This document shows positions 22,394 through 31,705 of a DNA stretch of 64,000 bases, piece after piece. Source of the DNA: Medicago truncatula (taxonomy: Eukaryota > Streptophyta > Magnoliopsida > Fabales > Fabaceae); NCBI RefSeq assembly GCF_003473485.1, contig NC_053043.1:18602001-18666000 (forward strand), written 5' to 3'. Within the stretch, counting starts at the first letter, position 1, and every line of letters begins with the position of its first letter. The position numbers were made by a program, and so were the translations under genes. The notes below the pieces were generated by a model. The model was not told the origin of the DNA and did no database searches. It saw only the letters and a program-made list of their open reading frames with translations.

Positions 22394-25300
22394 CTACTGT
22401 ATCCTCGTCTTCTTTTCTACTCTTGATGAGTGTTTCTTTGTGTCACTTGATCGATCTCTTTTCTCTTTCTTACTATTTACAAATTCAGCAAAGGATGGTA
22501 TTGGCGGTAAGTTTGTATTAAAAGAACTTTCTATTGGTATATCACATGGGATTGTTTCTGTTATAGCATTTTCTGAGAGCTCATTGCCAGTTTCTTCATT
22601 TGCACAAGGATCTGAAGCAGGTAGTGGCGTGAGAGGATGCTCGGCTTCAAAGAAGACACTCGGTGATGAGGAAGCATCAATTTCACTAAGTCGGTTCATC
22701 AGATCGACAGAACTTGTAGTTTTCAACCACCTGATAGTACTTGCAACTTTGGAATAATAGAATGATTTGCCAGTCTTGCCATATTTCTTGTAGCATTCAT
22801 CTTCGAGAAGAGATGCCGAGGTCTCCGTTTCAATCCTGAATAAATATTTTAAATTAGGAAAAGAAATACGGAAACAGCTCACACCCTAACTGCAATTGCT
22901 GCTTCAAATTGTTCAGGGGTGGGGAAACAAGATAATAAACAAGGTACTTGGAACTTGAGAGCATGTGCTTTAGTTGTGAAATTGTTTAGTCATGGTACTA
23001 TGGTGAAATATTTAGGTTTTTTATTTGAATAGTTCACCTATGGACTAAAAAGAGTAACAAAACTCTTAATTAATTTGATCCACTGACGATTAGGGTGTTC
23101 CTATATTAATCCTGATGACTTTTATTACCAAACTAAAATCCTTCAAAAATTAAAGTGTCGTCATACTAGTCCTTTAAAAAAAAAAATCCATAAAGTTACC
23201 GCATATTCGTTTAAGGATCCAACAGCCAAATTTGCTATGGACACACATGGATATGTGTGAACAAACAAACACTTATTCTCTCAAAGATACACAGTTGTCA
23301 ACAAATTCATCTATGTGGAGTGGAGGATTAAAGTCGTGATAAAAATGGACAAATGTCTGTGACAATTCTGTATCTTTGTGGGACTTATTTGCTGAAAAAT
23401 TATTCAGAGACTAATTTATTGAAAAATCTTTAGCGGTCTAATGTGACAACAATTTAATCTTTAGAGGATTGCGATCTTTGAACAAGATGCTGCATGTCTA
23501 ATACATTGCCCACTTCTTATAGCAAGTAGATGATAAGAAACTTCAATTGGGTGGTTTTCCTGTTGTGGCAGAGTGAGGTGTCATATGAAAGAACTCAAAC
23601 TAGTAAGAAAGATGTTTACATACTTAAAGTCGTCAATCCGTTGCTGAGCCTCTTTTAAAGCATTTTGTAATCTCTGCCTGCTTGCCTCTCGCAATGCATC
23701 AGAAATAGCATTCTTGTCAACTTTGTTTCTCTGTTAATCATATTTGATACGTGAGTATGAGATAGAAAGATAGGGGAGGTGTAACAATTTCTGCTGTGTT
23801 CATCTTAACAGTACTCAGCTAAGAATATATAATTAAGAGACTTGAAAATAAACTATTATACATTTCCAATTCCAGATTGCTAATCACAAAAAGTTCTGTT
23901 ATGGAGCCAGTCAAAAGCTCTCTAACCATGGGAAATAGAACTAGGCATAGAGCAAATTAGAGAATATACTTTTTTCAACAGTGGGTATAATGCTTAAAAA
24001 AACAAACCTGTTTATTAGTGCTCTCGCTTTGATAGTACTTCTCTTCTGCCCTCTGTAACAAATCAAGCTTTTCATTTACTCCCAGTCTGGATTGAACCTT
24101 TGACCGGGCTAGATTGCTGACAGCCTCATTACCGTCTGACAAAAAAAAATTCATTCACATAAATGAATAATCTACTAACCACTACATCACCTAAACAGTA
24201 AAACAAATGCAACTGAAATAAATTTGGTACCACCATCTATGTCGGAAATATCTTCCTCTGACCCACTTGCTTCCTCATCTCGATTCCAGAATTCAGATAA
24301 CTGTCCTCCATCAATTGCATCAGTGGAACTGAAAAAAAGGACAGTGGTGGATATACAAGAGATCTAGGCATTATTTAATTGTGGATTAATTAGTGTAGCA
24401 TAAGGAAATCACCACCAAGCCAACTACAAGTTCAGCACACTATCTTGTTGGCAGAAACTACCTTTTTAATTTTTTTTAATTTCCTCCTCTATCTTTTTCT
24501 CTCGCAGTTCTCTTTCTTTAGGACTAGACATGAGAGGCCAGAAGGCAAAATCACAGGGTAGGTGCTACAAAATCCGATGCTAATGGCATGGTCAGTCGGT
24601 CATACACATCCAAAGACAACACGGAAGTAATATATAAATCCTATCATAGCCATATTATACTATTTGATATGTCAGATATACTAACAAACCCAATCATCAT
24701 CTTCCAGTGGTACCAGTCATTACTATAATTTATTACAAAACACAACTGAAGATCATGTATTCCGAATATGTTTTTCGGTTTATCAACTTTAAGTTAAATT
24801 CTTAATGCATGAAGGTCTTTTACCTGGTAATGAAAACTCGAGAACCACCTCTCTGACGTAGAGAACAAGCAGCTGTGAGATCCTCCAAATTTCTGGCAAC
24901 TAAGTTTGGGTGTCTACAGGAGTCACATGTTTTTCCACATAATGATGTTGTTACCTGTTTGGAACAAAGTAAAGTATCTACTTGAGTCAATATGAATCAC
25001 ACCACATAATACCGGGTTGGGATCCTCTCCATTTCCTAAATGGAGAGGATCCCAACTCCATAATACCTAGTTCTGTATATTTCTTTACCTGCTCCCCAAA
25101 ACTCTCAAGAATTATTTTCCTACGACATCCAGATCCTTCACAATATTCAACCATCTACATGTTTTACATAAAGATTACATTACTTAAATGCATAATGGCA
25201 TTGTGCGTAGATACCATGTCAAAAGAAGCATGCAAGGATTTAGATGTTACCTGATTGAAAGCAGTCAGGGACATTCTGGTTGATTCTTCTTGTGAACTTG

Positions 25301-28300
25301 ATGATTGTGACTTCTTGTTACCTGAGTTGCGTAATATAAATTCCTGAAATAGATTATAGTAAGAGAAAACAAGTCTGATAACAAAACAAGATCAAAGCAT
25401 CAAGTTAAATAAGTCCACCATTCTTCTGCGATCATCTACTCCATAGTACAACAGACTTGTAGAGGGCAATTGATCACGACCAGCTCTGCCGGACTCTTGA
25501 TAGAATGCTTCCATTGACTTTGGAATATTGAAGTGGCACACAATTCTCACATCCTTTCTATCGATGCCCTGTAATTTGATCTTAATTTATTAATCGCTAA
25601 TCACATGAATATAAAAAGATTATAGCATTAAAACTTCATATAGAAGTTTCAATCAAATTTATAGTAAACAGCCACTCACCATCCTGAATGAACACCAAAG
25701 GTTCGGTAACTGAATGCAACAGAAACGCTCCATGCAGAGTATAGAAAGAAAAGAAATAAATACATTACAATCTCAAATAATTCATCAATCATTGGCATCA
25801 GAATAAAATCAGAAGATGTGCATATACTTATAACTTTTATACATTTGTGCTGATTCGCTACTCTCGCTTTTATTAATCTCGCTTGGGTCTATAATGTATC
25901 GATAGATCAGATTCACTGTAATACTCATACTCCATTAAATAATGATAGAGGTGCCATACTCTCTTATATGTTGCCATAAAGTGAATTATAAATAGCCTGA
26001 AATAGTGTTCACAATAGTGCTCCTATGCTTTCAGCAGGGGTAGTTGTCCATGCTATCCCTGTAGCATTGCGATTTCTTAATGGTGTGCCAGTGGTGCAAG
26101 CTATCTGCACCATCTGGTGAGGAATGCCACATTTCCTTCTACATACACTTGTATAAAAACGCAATGACAAAAAAGCATAAAACACAATCATGCACAATTT
26201 AATGCAGTACATCCAAACATGCTAACAACCACAGATGATAAAAGTCAAAATAAAATTACAAGATCATGTCTCAAGATTGTGATCTTGATCGTAGAATCAG
26301 TCTACAGTCAAAGTAAAATTACAAGGTAAATGTCCATGAGAACCAATGTTTTTAGCATCACGATCTAAATCATGGGAGCATACAATCCTACAATTTTTCA
26401 TGTTGTAGTCATGATCACATCTCAGTGGAATCAGTGTATGATCACCAGTCTTGATTGTTAAATCACAGGATATGTGATCTCAGATGATCCCAAAAGGGCC
26501 AGAATTAAGTCTCCTTTTGCAACCCAGTTTGAAAGCACTTCAATTTTCCCCTAATTCCCAACCTAACTTCCCTTACCCCTCAGCCTCACTAGCTCTTTAT
26601 GCCTCCTCCCTCTCTTTTCTCTTTCTAGAACTGTGACCACCTATGATTAAGATCAGTGATCCTACACTGATTTCGCCGAGATGAAATCTTACCTATGATC
26701 CAGCATGGAAAGCAAAAGAAAAATTGTAGGGAATCATGAGCTTACAACAATGTGAAAAATTCATGTCCTCATATGAGCACTGTGCATAAAATTAAAGTTT
26801 AAATATGCGTAAAAATTAATAAAAAAATACATTTATGAGATTAAGTATTCAGACAATTTACATCACCGAAGAATTCGGGGAGGGGTAGAATTGGCTATAT
26901 GAAAAACTTTCTTCAAAAGAAACCACTTCGATTATTCAATTAAATCAGTCAACCACTTTCGTGAAAAGTGTTCCTCTTGAACAGCAAGAAAATACAGTAA
27001 AAAAGCTGGACATTAGTGGACAACAAACTCAATGGCATTCAAGAGTACATGCAAGGGTGGTGGTCCAAATGTCTTCTTGCAAGTGACTACTGCAGGCTAC
27101 ACTCACAGAATTCTACCTCGATGAGACAATCTAGGTAACTTCAACTGTTAACAGTGATGTTCATCGAGTGTTCACTTATGAGGGCAGATTACAATATTTG
27201 ACATTTCCATTGATTCAGTCGAAGAGAAAATCTAAGTCAAGTACGTTAACGATGTTGGTCACATTCTCCCTTAGTTTTGATTATTTTGAAATGAAACTAC
27301 TAGTACTAAGATTACGTCACTGCACCAGGGAAAATTTTGTATAATAGTATTAGAAAGTTAACCATGTCACTTAACACAAATCATAACGAAAAAACATACC
27401 CAAAAGCAACAGTGGCAACAACAACTTTTGTTTTTGAAGATATCCAATCATGTAGCACAGAAGTTCGCATTTTATTATTCAGTCCTGCATGATAAGCTGA
27501 AAAAACCGGAAAATTATGAATATTAAATCAAGGGAGGGGTCAAATTGTAGGATTGAAGGGGAAGCTTCTCACACATGGTTTCTTTTTTTTTTTTTAAGTT
27601 TTTCTTAATATTACATGTATTATTACGTGTATTAGTTGCTCACAATATTTGATAATATTGTTCTTAATGCCCCTCAATTTCTTGTCACATATTTTTTATA
27701 TATTCATTGTACACAGTACATTTTTTGTGGTTAGAAAAGTATGACTTATCATCTTGTTCCCTACTTTAAAAAATTTAGTCTTTACTTCTTTATCAAGATT
27801 CAAGCTTTTGTTGCGTATAAATTTATTTTATTTCATTTTGTTCTTTTCTCTTGTATCTTACGTGCCTCTCTTCTTCTCATTCTTATTTTGCCTCAATTTC
27901 TAACATATTATCCTTCATGAATAGTTGAATGATTTGTACCTACTTAGAGAATTCCCTAGTGATAAAATGAGGAAATCATCAATGTTTTCAAACTATGATC
28001 ACCTGTACAGAACTATTATAGTGTAAATTTATAGCATATTATGTTTATAGTATTAGTGTATTATAATGCAACAGATTTACATATATGCATATGTTCAAGG
28101 TCCCTTTAGTTGCAATAAATCATTTTGCAAAGGCATTAAAATACATTAAAATATTACCAGCACAAGAAATGCCTCTTTGGGATAGATGAGCTGACAAGTC
28201 ATCACACATGGAACGTTCAAGGCAGTAAATTATCGCACAAACATCGCCCATAGATTTGAGTCTATCAGATAAATCAGAATAAGAATCGTCCAATAGATCT

Positions 28301-31300
28301 TTGTACCTAACTGTATAATGAAAACATCAAGTCAGATTTGATTGAATTTATTAATAAAAGCATGCCTGCGTCTCATGCAAAATTAACATATAAAGCAATT
28401 CACCAATTAAACTTATTGAGTAACTGGAATGCTCAAAATAGCCCTAAATTTACTGCATTGGAATCGGACGGATTGCTTCAAATATGTTTCATTTGCATCT
28501 TATCTATTTTCATGCAAATGTTGTTTTTTTTTTTCAATACAGAAATTAGCTTGTAAGTTTTTTGCTTTCTTCTATCCTCTCGTTGATAGCATTGTTGTCA
28601 CCAAATTTAAGTTACATTTACGTAATGACTGGATTGATTCATTATTCATGTGCCAGCCACATTACATTTGATAGAGAACAGTGATGGTTTCCCATTACTA
28701 ACATGGAAATGATGACCTACAGGCAGGGAGAAACTGGAATCTAAATTGATTTATAGATGTGAATCAAACACCAAGCAGGATTGACTGACCTTCATAATAT
28801 ATATTAGGACGATTAAAAGAAGTCTTCAGTATTAATGCATTTTGCATGTGCAATGATTCCACTACATCCTTCTGAACCCTGAAGAAAATAAATAACCAAG
28901 AAATTAAAGTGACGATGTGATTCTCGTTTTTCACACCTCAGGCCAAGAGAAAAAATAAAGAAAATGAAAGAGAATGCCTGCTTCAAAAATCCTACTCAGA
29001 ATGTGCAATGATCAATGTGATACACAGAGCATACTCTTTGAATTTGAATATTATAAAGCCATATTATCATAAAACAATATGACAGACCCGTAATATAAAA
29101 GCAATCCTATCAGGATAGAATATACACACACAACAGACACAACTACATACATACCACCAATAGGTGAATAGAAATTTCAGAAATCTACAACAATTGGAAG
29201 ATTATTATTCAGAAGAATAGATAGAAATGCATAAACATAGGATTTCATATGAAATTTGTTCAATCACAAATGTTTTTTTTTTTGACATGGTTCATGCACA
29301 AAAATAAATAGCAAAAAAAACATAATTATATAAAAGAAAGTAAATTAAGAAAACTCACTTAGGAACAGCGGTAGCGGTTAGAGCTAATATTGGTACATCT
29401 GGTAGGTGGCTTCTCAGAGTTGAAAGCTTACGGTAGGTAGGTCTGTTCCCAAACACAAAAAGAAAAGGGAATAGAACATCATCAGAATAAACTCCAACCA
29501 AAACTGTATCATCATAGGAAAGCTTGAGCTTTAAGATTAGTTACTTCAAGAGCAGCACCTAACATGGACAAGTGCAAAACTCTGGCATGTGTGATTGAAC
29601 TTGTTTACATTTTTAAATTTAATAATGAAAGATTGAGATGAGAACAACATTATATCAAAATCACCTAAAAATAACAAAAAGCAAACTGATTGGTATCAGT
29701 GTTCTGTTTTAAATCTGGATGACCTGTCAACTCCATAATGGCCCAAAAAAATCTAATGACTAATCAATCCCCAATAGATTACCGCACATCATATTCCTCA
29801 CTCTTGCACATCGTTATTAATATCATATTCATCGCATCCTAAGAAATTACATCAAGAAAAATTCAAATGGATAGTAGCATAATGAATAAAAATACCTGAA
29901 ATCATGACCCCAGGAAGAGATGCAATGTGCCTGAAAATTATGAATAAGTTAAATTATCAAAGATGGTCATAAAATTCCAAAACAAATTTGAAATAGTCTT
30001 TCCGGCTAGACCTCATCAATGGCAATGAGACTTAGCAACCCCCTGGAATGAATCTTTGTCAGCTTTGACATAAACCCTGGGGTTGCTATCAACTCTGGAG
30101 TAACATATAGCAGCCTTGTAGACGGTTTTCCAGAACCAAGGTCCTCGTGAATCTTAAACATAAAACAGAAAACTCAGTTTCCTAAATTAATAACACAACA
30201 ACTAAAAAATTGGCTACACATTCATATAAGCGAAGGGGTAAATTCTAGAATGGAAGGTCAGTAGCCCAATAATGAGTGAGGTTCAGGGATAAGATATCCA
30301 AGAATTCTAGCAGTTTCATTGTGAGCCCATAAATTTACTAGAGACATTATTCTTGTATATTCACAAAAATCCAAACTTCAATATAAAACCCAAGATCTGA
30401 GCAAAGAGTAGTAGACTAAGATTATGTATTTATTATACTAAGTTTCCATTACACAATTGTATACGTAGATACATCATTTACAGTACAATATCAGCAGTAT
30501 TCTAATAATCCACCTTATCTTTTGCTTTTGCTGTTTTAGTTGAGGAGAGAAACTCTGCAGCAATTCCTTTCTCCTTTAGTGCCATCACTTGGTTTTCCTA
30601 ACTTGTAGGGAAAAAGAACCATATGAACCAAAACAAACTATTAACTCATAAATTCAGCATGTCTGAAAAACCAGTAAACTGATTAAATGAAAAAGATGCT
30701 TACCATTAAGGCTGACAGCACTCAGCAGAATAAAAGTCAGAAATCACAACCAGTATCCTCGTATGCAAACCCGAGTGAATTATCAGACAACATTTAGCTC
30801 AGTATAAAATACAAACTCCCAAAAAATTGATGAAAATTATTCACCTATTAAAGGACAAACTACAAGCACGATTCCTTCTTTTGCCAATGCAGGGATCTGA
30901 TAACACATTGACTTGCCTCCTCCTGTTGGCATAAGACAAAAACAATCTCTTCCTGTAACCACAGAAAAAGAGCAAAGTTAACCCAAAATTAACGAAAATT
31001 CCAACTTTAATCACCATCATTCAAGCAATTACGTTATGTTTGAATTGACTTATTTGAGCTTATCTACAGACATAAACACTCGTGAGTTTGAGAGAGCTTA
31101 TGAAAATAGCTTATGACATATTCGTAAGTTATTTTCAGCTTATTTACAGAATCCCTCCGAAATAGCTTATGAAAACAACTATACTACTTTATCTTTTGTT
31201 TGTGCTATAAGCTATGAAGCACATACATGACATCGACACCCGTAGTAATTTAACAAAATGACATGACTGAAAGTAATCACATCACATGTGTCCGTGTTAG

Positions 31301-31705
31301 ACACAGACACTACACACACCTTCGATTAGAAGTGTGGATGCTACTTTATCCAAACAGAACCATAGTAATTAACCCACTTCTATTTTCCTAATGCAAAGAA
31401 AAAACACATTTATGATTTAACTACATTTTCTAATACCTCATTTACTACTAATTACTACTAAATATGAAGAAAAATACCAAATTTCAATTTTGATAGAAAA
31501 TTCAATTGAACATATAAAGAAAAATGCGAATTGGACCTGAAAGCACAGCTTGAATAGCTTCCAATTGCAAACCCCTAAAATCAGGATACCCAAAATGCCA
31601 TCTAAGAACCTTCACAAGCGATTCCTTGCTACACAATTCCAATTTCTTCTTGTTCCCGCTGGTTTCGATCAACGGTAACGGCGATTTCTTCACATTCTTC
31701 TGCAT
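22394..31705 (-). CDS. RECQL3: RecQ-family DNA helicase, RECQL3 type
   Basis: Nineteen minus-strand exons join in frame to 727 aa, close to the roughly 710 aa I recall for plant RECQL3: 31705-31537, 30952-30845, 30711-30704, 30597-30514, 30152-30012, 29930-29896, 29442-29359, 28878-28790, 28310-28158, 27496-27400, 25683-25680, 25568-25419, 25343-25251, 25154-25089, 24954-24824, 24328-24234, 24135-24008, 23730-23624 and 22835-22394. Visible motifs: Walker A PTGGGKS (65-71), DEAH (169-172), LALTATA (motif III), QESGRAGRD (348-356, motif VI), then the RecQ zinc-binding region with Cys 410, 415, 433, 437 and 440. It would unwind DNA 3'-5' in the nucleus in recombination and repair. The ATG at 31705 precedes QKNVKKSPL; an in-frame open stretch upstream lies in the presumed 5' UTR. 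Two exons are only 8 and 4 nt. Confidence 0.92.
25680..25683 (-). other. 4-nt microexon of the RecQ helicase gene
   Basis: Minus strand TTCATTCAG/GATG/GTGAGTGG. Exon 10 ends TTTGG and exon 12 begins GGCATCGAT. Joining them directly shifts frame; adding GATG gives the conserved Phe-Gly-Met-Gly-Ile-Asp of RecQ helicases. Upstream intron 1716 nt, downstream intron 111 nt. Confidence 0.8.
30704..30711 (-). other. 8-nt microexon of the RecQ helicase gene
   Basis: Minus strand GCTGTCAG/CCTTAATG/GTAAGC. It joins exon 2 (ending ATAG) to exon 4 (starting GAAAACC) to give Ile-Ala-Leu-Met-Glu-Asn-Gln-Val, the conserved helicase motif Ia region. Without it the frame is lost. Flanking introns are 133 and 106 nt. 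Confidence 0.82.
31020..31340. repeat. Degenerate palindromic repeat in RecQ intron 1
   Basis: Several direct and inverted copies of AGCTTATGAAAA and GAGCTTAT occur here, a pattern I recall from a common legume foldback MITE. Ends are not preserved. Confidence 0.4.

Follow-up and report, generated by a model that had tools for sequence, protein, structure and literature searches.

How the reading frame of a RecQ-type DNA-repair helicase gene is carried from exon 10 to exon 12 is the question raised by this locus of Medicago truncatula. The gene is complete on the minus strand within the window (the whole stretch of 64,000 nt that was analysed), where 19 coding exons were assembled from 31705 to 22394, and all 18 introns between them are bounded by GT-AG. 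Pfam domains DEAD, Helicase_C and RecQ_Zn_bind were identified in the 727-aa product, whose top match among solved structures is the ATP-dependent DNA helicase Q5, with FGMGVD where the Medicago gene has FGMGID. The original prediction held that a 4-nt exon, GATG, at 25683-25680, is needed between exons 10 and 12, that its use in RNA was inferred, that exons this small are extremely rare and that the published model of the gene may be wrong. An even smaller exon, of a single nucleotide, has reportedly been found in Arabidopsis.

We examined the sequence at the join. Read along the minus strand, the order is TTTTGG/gtatgt, then ag/GATG/gtgagt, then ag/GGCATCGAT, the 4-nt exon being immediately preceded by cattcag (Table 1). 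Exon 10 leaves the frame in phase 2 and exon 12 takes it up in phase 0, so that an intervening exon with a length of 1 modulo 3 is required. When GATG was included, the coding sequence stayed open for 727 aa and Phe-Gly-Met-Gly-Ile-Asp was kept, while joining exon 10 directly to exon 12 led to a stop after 329 codons. The coordinates given for the microexon proved exact, and its numbering as exon 11, between exons 10 and 12, holds once an 8-nt exon 3 is included. In the genome to which the window belongs (429,922,655 bases in 42 contigs), a search with the DNA around the microexon gave a single match.

Table 1. Features of the RecQ helicase gene at the microexon joins (window coordinates)
Feature	Position	Strand	Remarks
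RecQ helicase Q-like 3 gene, whole coding span	22394..31705	-	2,184 nt including the stop; 727 aa
Exon 3, 8-nt microexon CCTTAATG	30704..30711	-	phase 1; codes for part of Ala and for Leu-Met in PLIALMENQ
Exon 10	27400..27496	-	ends TTTTGG, two codon bases left over; donor gtatgt
GTAT, 4 nt added to exon 10 by the +4 donor (GTAT/gt)	27396..27399	-	in-frame FGYGID without the microexon
Intron upstream of the GATG microexon	25684..27399	-	1,716 nt; GT-AG
Exon 11, microexon GATG	25680..25683	-	4 nt; phase 2; supplies the last base of a Gly codon and the Met324 codon of FGMGID
Intron downstream of the GATG microexon	25569..25679	-	111 nt; GT-AG
Exon 12	25419..25568	-	begins GGCATCGAT, GGC ATC GAT; phase 0

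We then asked how often such a motif would arise by chance, by shuffling the 1,831-nt span that separates exon 10 from exon 12 (2000 dinucleotide shuffles). By itself, the AG-NATG-GT core is no rarity (274 of the 2000 shuffles), and the longer patterns were found less often: AGGATGGT in 62, YAG-NATG-GTRAG in 3 and CAGGATGGTGAG in none. The span holds 115 candidate exons, that is, stretches of 1-60 nt between AG and GT with a frame-restoring length, and the frame stays open with 51 of them; given these figures and the frequency of the core, an open frame alone is weak evidence for GATG. Splice-site strength was evaluated with a model built on 16 donors and 16 acceptors taken from other introns of the same gene. 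Results showed that GATG ranks first among the 115 candidates, with a score of 16.29 against 12.41 for the runner-up, and that, among the six 4-nt candidates, no other has two good sites, the remaining five scoring at most 5.21. Two points are less favourable to GATG: the normal donor of exon 10 is the weakest of the gene's 18 donors in this model, and the 40 nt before GATG have a T content of 0.40, where the gene's introns average 0.46, so that no special T-rich tract was seen in that stretch.

Comparison with database proteins showed that the assembled 727-aa product is identical to P0001, named 'ATP-dependent DNA helicase Q-like 3 isoform X2' [Medicago truncatula], which implies that M. truncatula database models already contain the GATG exon. 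FGMGID is present in two full-length records of this species (P0001 and P0002) and in a shorter isoform (P0007). The suspicion that the published Medicago model may be wrong was therefore not borne out, and none of the M. truncatula records seen needs correction at this exon. A further record, P0004, whose source carries the label 'lgn', has a 657-codon frame derived from two contigs, neither longer than 2,173 nt; in the window this frame extends over 8,515 bases (30908 to 22394), so the source of P0004 was spliced. An intron-less copy of the gene, were it that source, would in turn go back to spliced RNA. This record, known here by its protein, contains both FGMGID and PLIALMENQ and has the same exon 10-11-12 join.

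Microexons of this kind have been catalogued in plants. The main text of Yu et al. 2022 (PMC8831610) describes as Cluster 5 a conserved plant microexon of 4 nt and phase 2 in RECQ3, e.g. AT4G35740.1. The Medicago GATG is like it in size (4 nt), in phase (2), in lying in a RECQ3-type gene and in being coding, internal and flanked by GT-AG, and no difference was found in the features given in that main text. As to the gene, the product is identical to the Q-like 3 isoform X2 record and carries RecQ domains; as to the flanks, which may be GT-AG or GC-AG in the cluster, those of GATG are among them. GATG is almost certainly a genuine 4-nt coding microexon of a RecQ3-type DNA helicase gene and the Medicago copy of the conserved Cluster 5. 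Here, this reading is based on the sequence, the frame, splice-site strength, identity to a database protein and the protein of a transcript-sized contig; what PMC8831610 contributes, in its main text, is a cluster in RECQ3 genes that was built on exons found by RNA-seq. The use of GATG in RNA, for which the original prediction had claimed an indirect basis, is strengthened by the join in the P0004 protein and by this RNA-seq-based cluster, and GATG is probably included in most transcripts of M. truncatula.

The exon is therefore correctly read but already known, being both published and present in database models. With its conservation among plants in print and the exon contained in the gene's own models, it is an ordinary case. 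The word Medicago occurs 0 times in the main texts of PMC8831610 and PMC12409088. According to the first of these main texts, moss shares 35 of the 45 clusters, Selaginella 5 that moss lacks, 4 are specific to flowering plants (4, 12, 39 and 43) and one, Cluster 10, is shared with an alga; by elimination, Cluster 5 belongs to the moss or the Selaginella group. The same source counts, for each species, between 105 and 454 exons of 1-15 nt, down to 1 nt, and for 132 plant genomes a later database paper gives a total of 20,224 (PMC12409088). With such counts per species, the description 'extremely rare' should be toned down. Other tiny plant exons, such as the 1-nt microexon of APC11 and the 9-nt microexon of potato invertase, differ from it in gene and size (PMC8831610, main text).

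In the proposed sequence of events, the spliceosome would take out the 1,716-nt intron before GATG and the 111-nt intron after it, both GT-AG, to give an mRNA reading GCT TTT GG/G ATG/GGC ATC GAT. Ala-Phe-Gly-Met-Gly-Ile-Asp would thus be kept in the C-terminal helicase domain. The short downstream intron would probably tend to leave first; introns that adjoin microexons, and in particular those on the upstream side, are reported to be spliced late, once transcription is over, more often than others (PMC8831610, main text).

To see the join in other plants, we aligned database relatives and read the residues at this position. A first search had 7,993 matches, of which the best 120 were listed; a second, with the Tyr form as query and hence favouring Tyr records, had 315, of which again the best 120 were listed. 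Pooling both gave 175 distinct listed records, which are not independent, as sister species, and also the several isoforms of a single gene, were counted separately. FG-M-G is common to 133 of these 175 relatives. Among the 120 records listed in the first search, GMG was found in 86, GYG in 10, GLG in 2 and RMG in 1, and the remaining 21 were longer, shorter or distorted. We separated the contig-only ('lgn') records, a label that we read as denoting assemblies of public sequencing runs, from the rest of the 175. All 18 contig-only records carry GMG, while the other 157 comprise 115 with GMG, 18 with GYG (Lotus japonicus, Trifolium repens and Sorghum bicolor included), 2 with GLG and 22 distorted. 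Phe-Gly-Met-Gly is thus missing from 42 of 157 records on one side and from 0 of 18 on the other (Fisher P = 0.008). These 42 records, from other plants, bear out the expectation that predictors often skip or distort such an exon, and the locus is a clean example of a known trap, that of exons too small for usual annotation. In other plants, the RECQ3 records with Tyr (18), Leu (2) or a distorted join (22) among the 157 listed are probably wrong at this position. The two Leu records, with FGLGID at the microexon position, are P0028 (Prosopis cineraria) and P0117 (Sesamum indicum).

The Tyr records call attention to the donor of exon 10. When the donor GTATGT is shifted by 4 nt, GTAT replaces GATG at the same length and the full 727-aa frame is open. 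We counted 38 open donor/acceptor combinations within 60 nt of exons 10 and 12, GC donors included, and FG-x-GID is kept only when the +4 GT donor is paired with the unshifted acceptor; frame repair by the other nearby sites was rejected. One alternative is that GTATGT acts as a tandem donor, at which the plant chooses, in some species or tissues, between the GATG microexon (Met) and the 4-nt extension of exon 10 (Tyr). Were it true, the gene would give two helicases of the same length, one residue apart in a conserved helicase motif, and Tyr in the 18 records from other plants would reflect real isoforms rather than annotation errors; we consider such a choice very unlikely. Very improbable, too, is the outright alternative that the microexon is skipped and exon 10 is spliced from a donor 4 nt downstream (TTTTGGGTAT/gt), which yields FGYGID at the same length. 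The two forms would differ in cDNA, with GGGATGGGC for inclusion of GATG and GGGTATGGGC for the +4 donor without the microexon. The site for such skipping exists in the window, with the 727-aa frame open, and GYG occurs in 18 of the 157 listed records not tagged contig-only. However, the +4 donor scores -1.1, compared with 3.65 for the normal exon 10 donor, and Met is found in all three M. truncatula records seen (P0001, P0002 and P0007). Also, Tyr is seen in 0 of the 18 contig-only records despite the Tyr query, although for Tyr alone the contrast with the 18 of 157 is not significant (Fisher P = 0.22). A read aligner that laid GATG over GTAT could be expected to yield such models, and wrong extension of a neighbouring exon is an error class named in PMC8831610, whose main text lists it together with skipping and frameshift with truncation. 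The Tyr models of other species probably arise from this +4 site, and a Tyr at this place in FGYGID may point to a missed 4-nt exon.

Moving the acceptor by +11 nt fits the form AFG-KDV, as in P0013 and P0016, and moving the donor by -11 nt fits AT-GID, as in P0029 and P0120, these combinations having been listed on the Medicago sequence and not on the genomes behind the four records. We infer that the odd forms at the join are annotation errors and not isoforms. Finally, that another frame-restoring exon of the intron is used and GATG is a chance match, as the 51 open frames among 115 candidates and the core in 274 of 2000 shuffles might suggest, is the least credible alternative, with next to no probability, and was rejected on the first rank of GATG by splice-site score, the identity of the product to the named record P0001 and the agreement of the join in P0002, P0004 and P0007.

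Besides GATG, the gene contains a second microexon, the 8-nt exon 3 (CCTTAATG, 30711-30704). Omitting it from the coding sequence led to a stop after 112 codons, and of the 9 length-compatible candidates in its intron span it is the only one that does not exceed 15 nt. The main text of PMC8831610 gives, for the same gene as Cluster 5, a Cluster 18 microexon of 8 nt and phase 1 in RECQ3, to which exon 3 is alike in size, phase and gene; the match to Cluster 18 concerns exon 3 and not the GATG exon of the original prediction. Seven of the 175 listed relatives, one of them the M. truncatula isoform P0007, start shortly after exon 3, with MALKEKG or a very similar sequence, and these starts perhaps come from models or transcripts without it.

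Two minor observations concern other parts of the locus. At the end of exon 16 (24233-24231, minus strand) the RecQ helicase gene has a tandem donor, ATG/gtg/gta, whose first site is used in P0001 (DIDDGNE) and whose site 3 nt further on is used in P0002, P0004, P0005 and P0007 (DIDGDGNE), so that one Gly is optional. Just upstream of the RecQ gene, at about 34134-33632 (minus strand), lies a gene of the same orientation, two exons of which match the IF-2B family; RecQ and IF-2B domains are both listed for the 1,103-aa record P0008 of Sesbania bispinosa, which looks like a predictor-made fusion of two adjoining genes.
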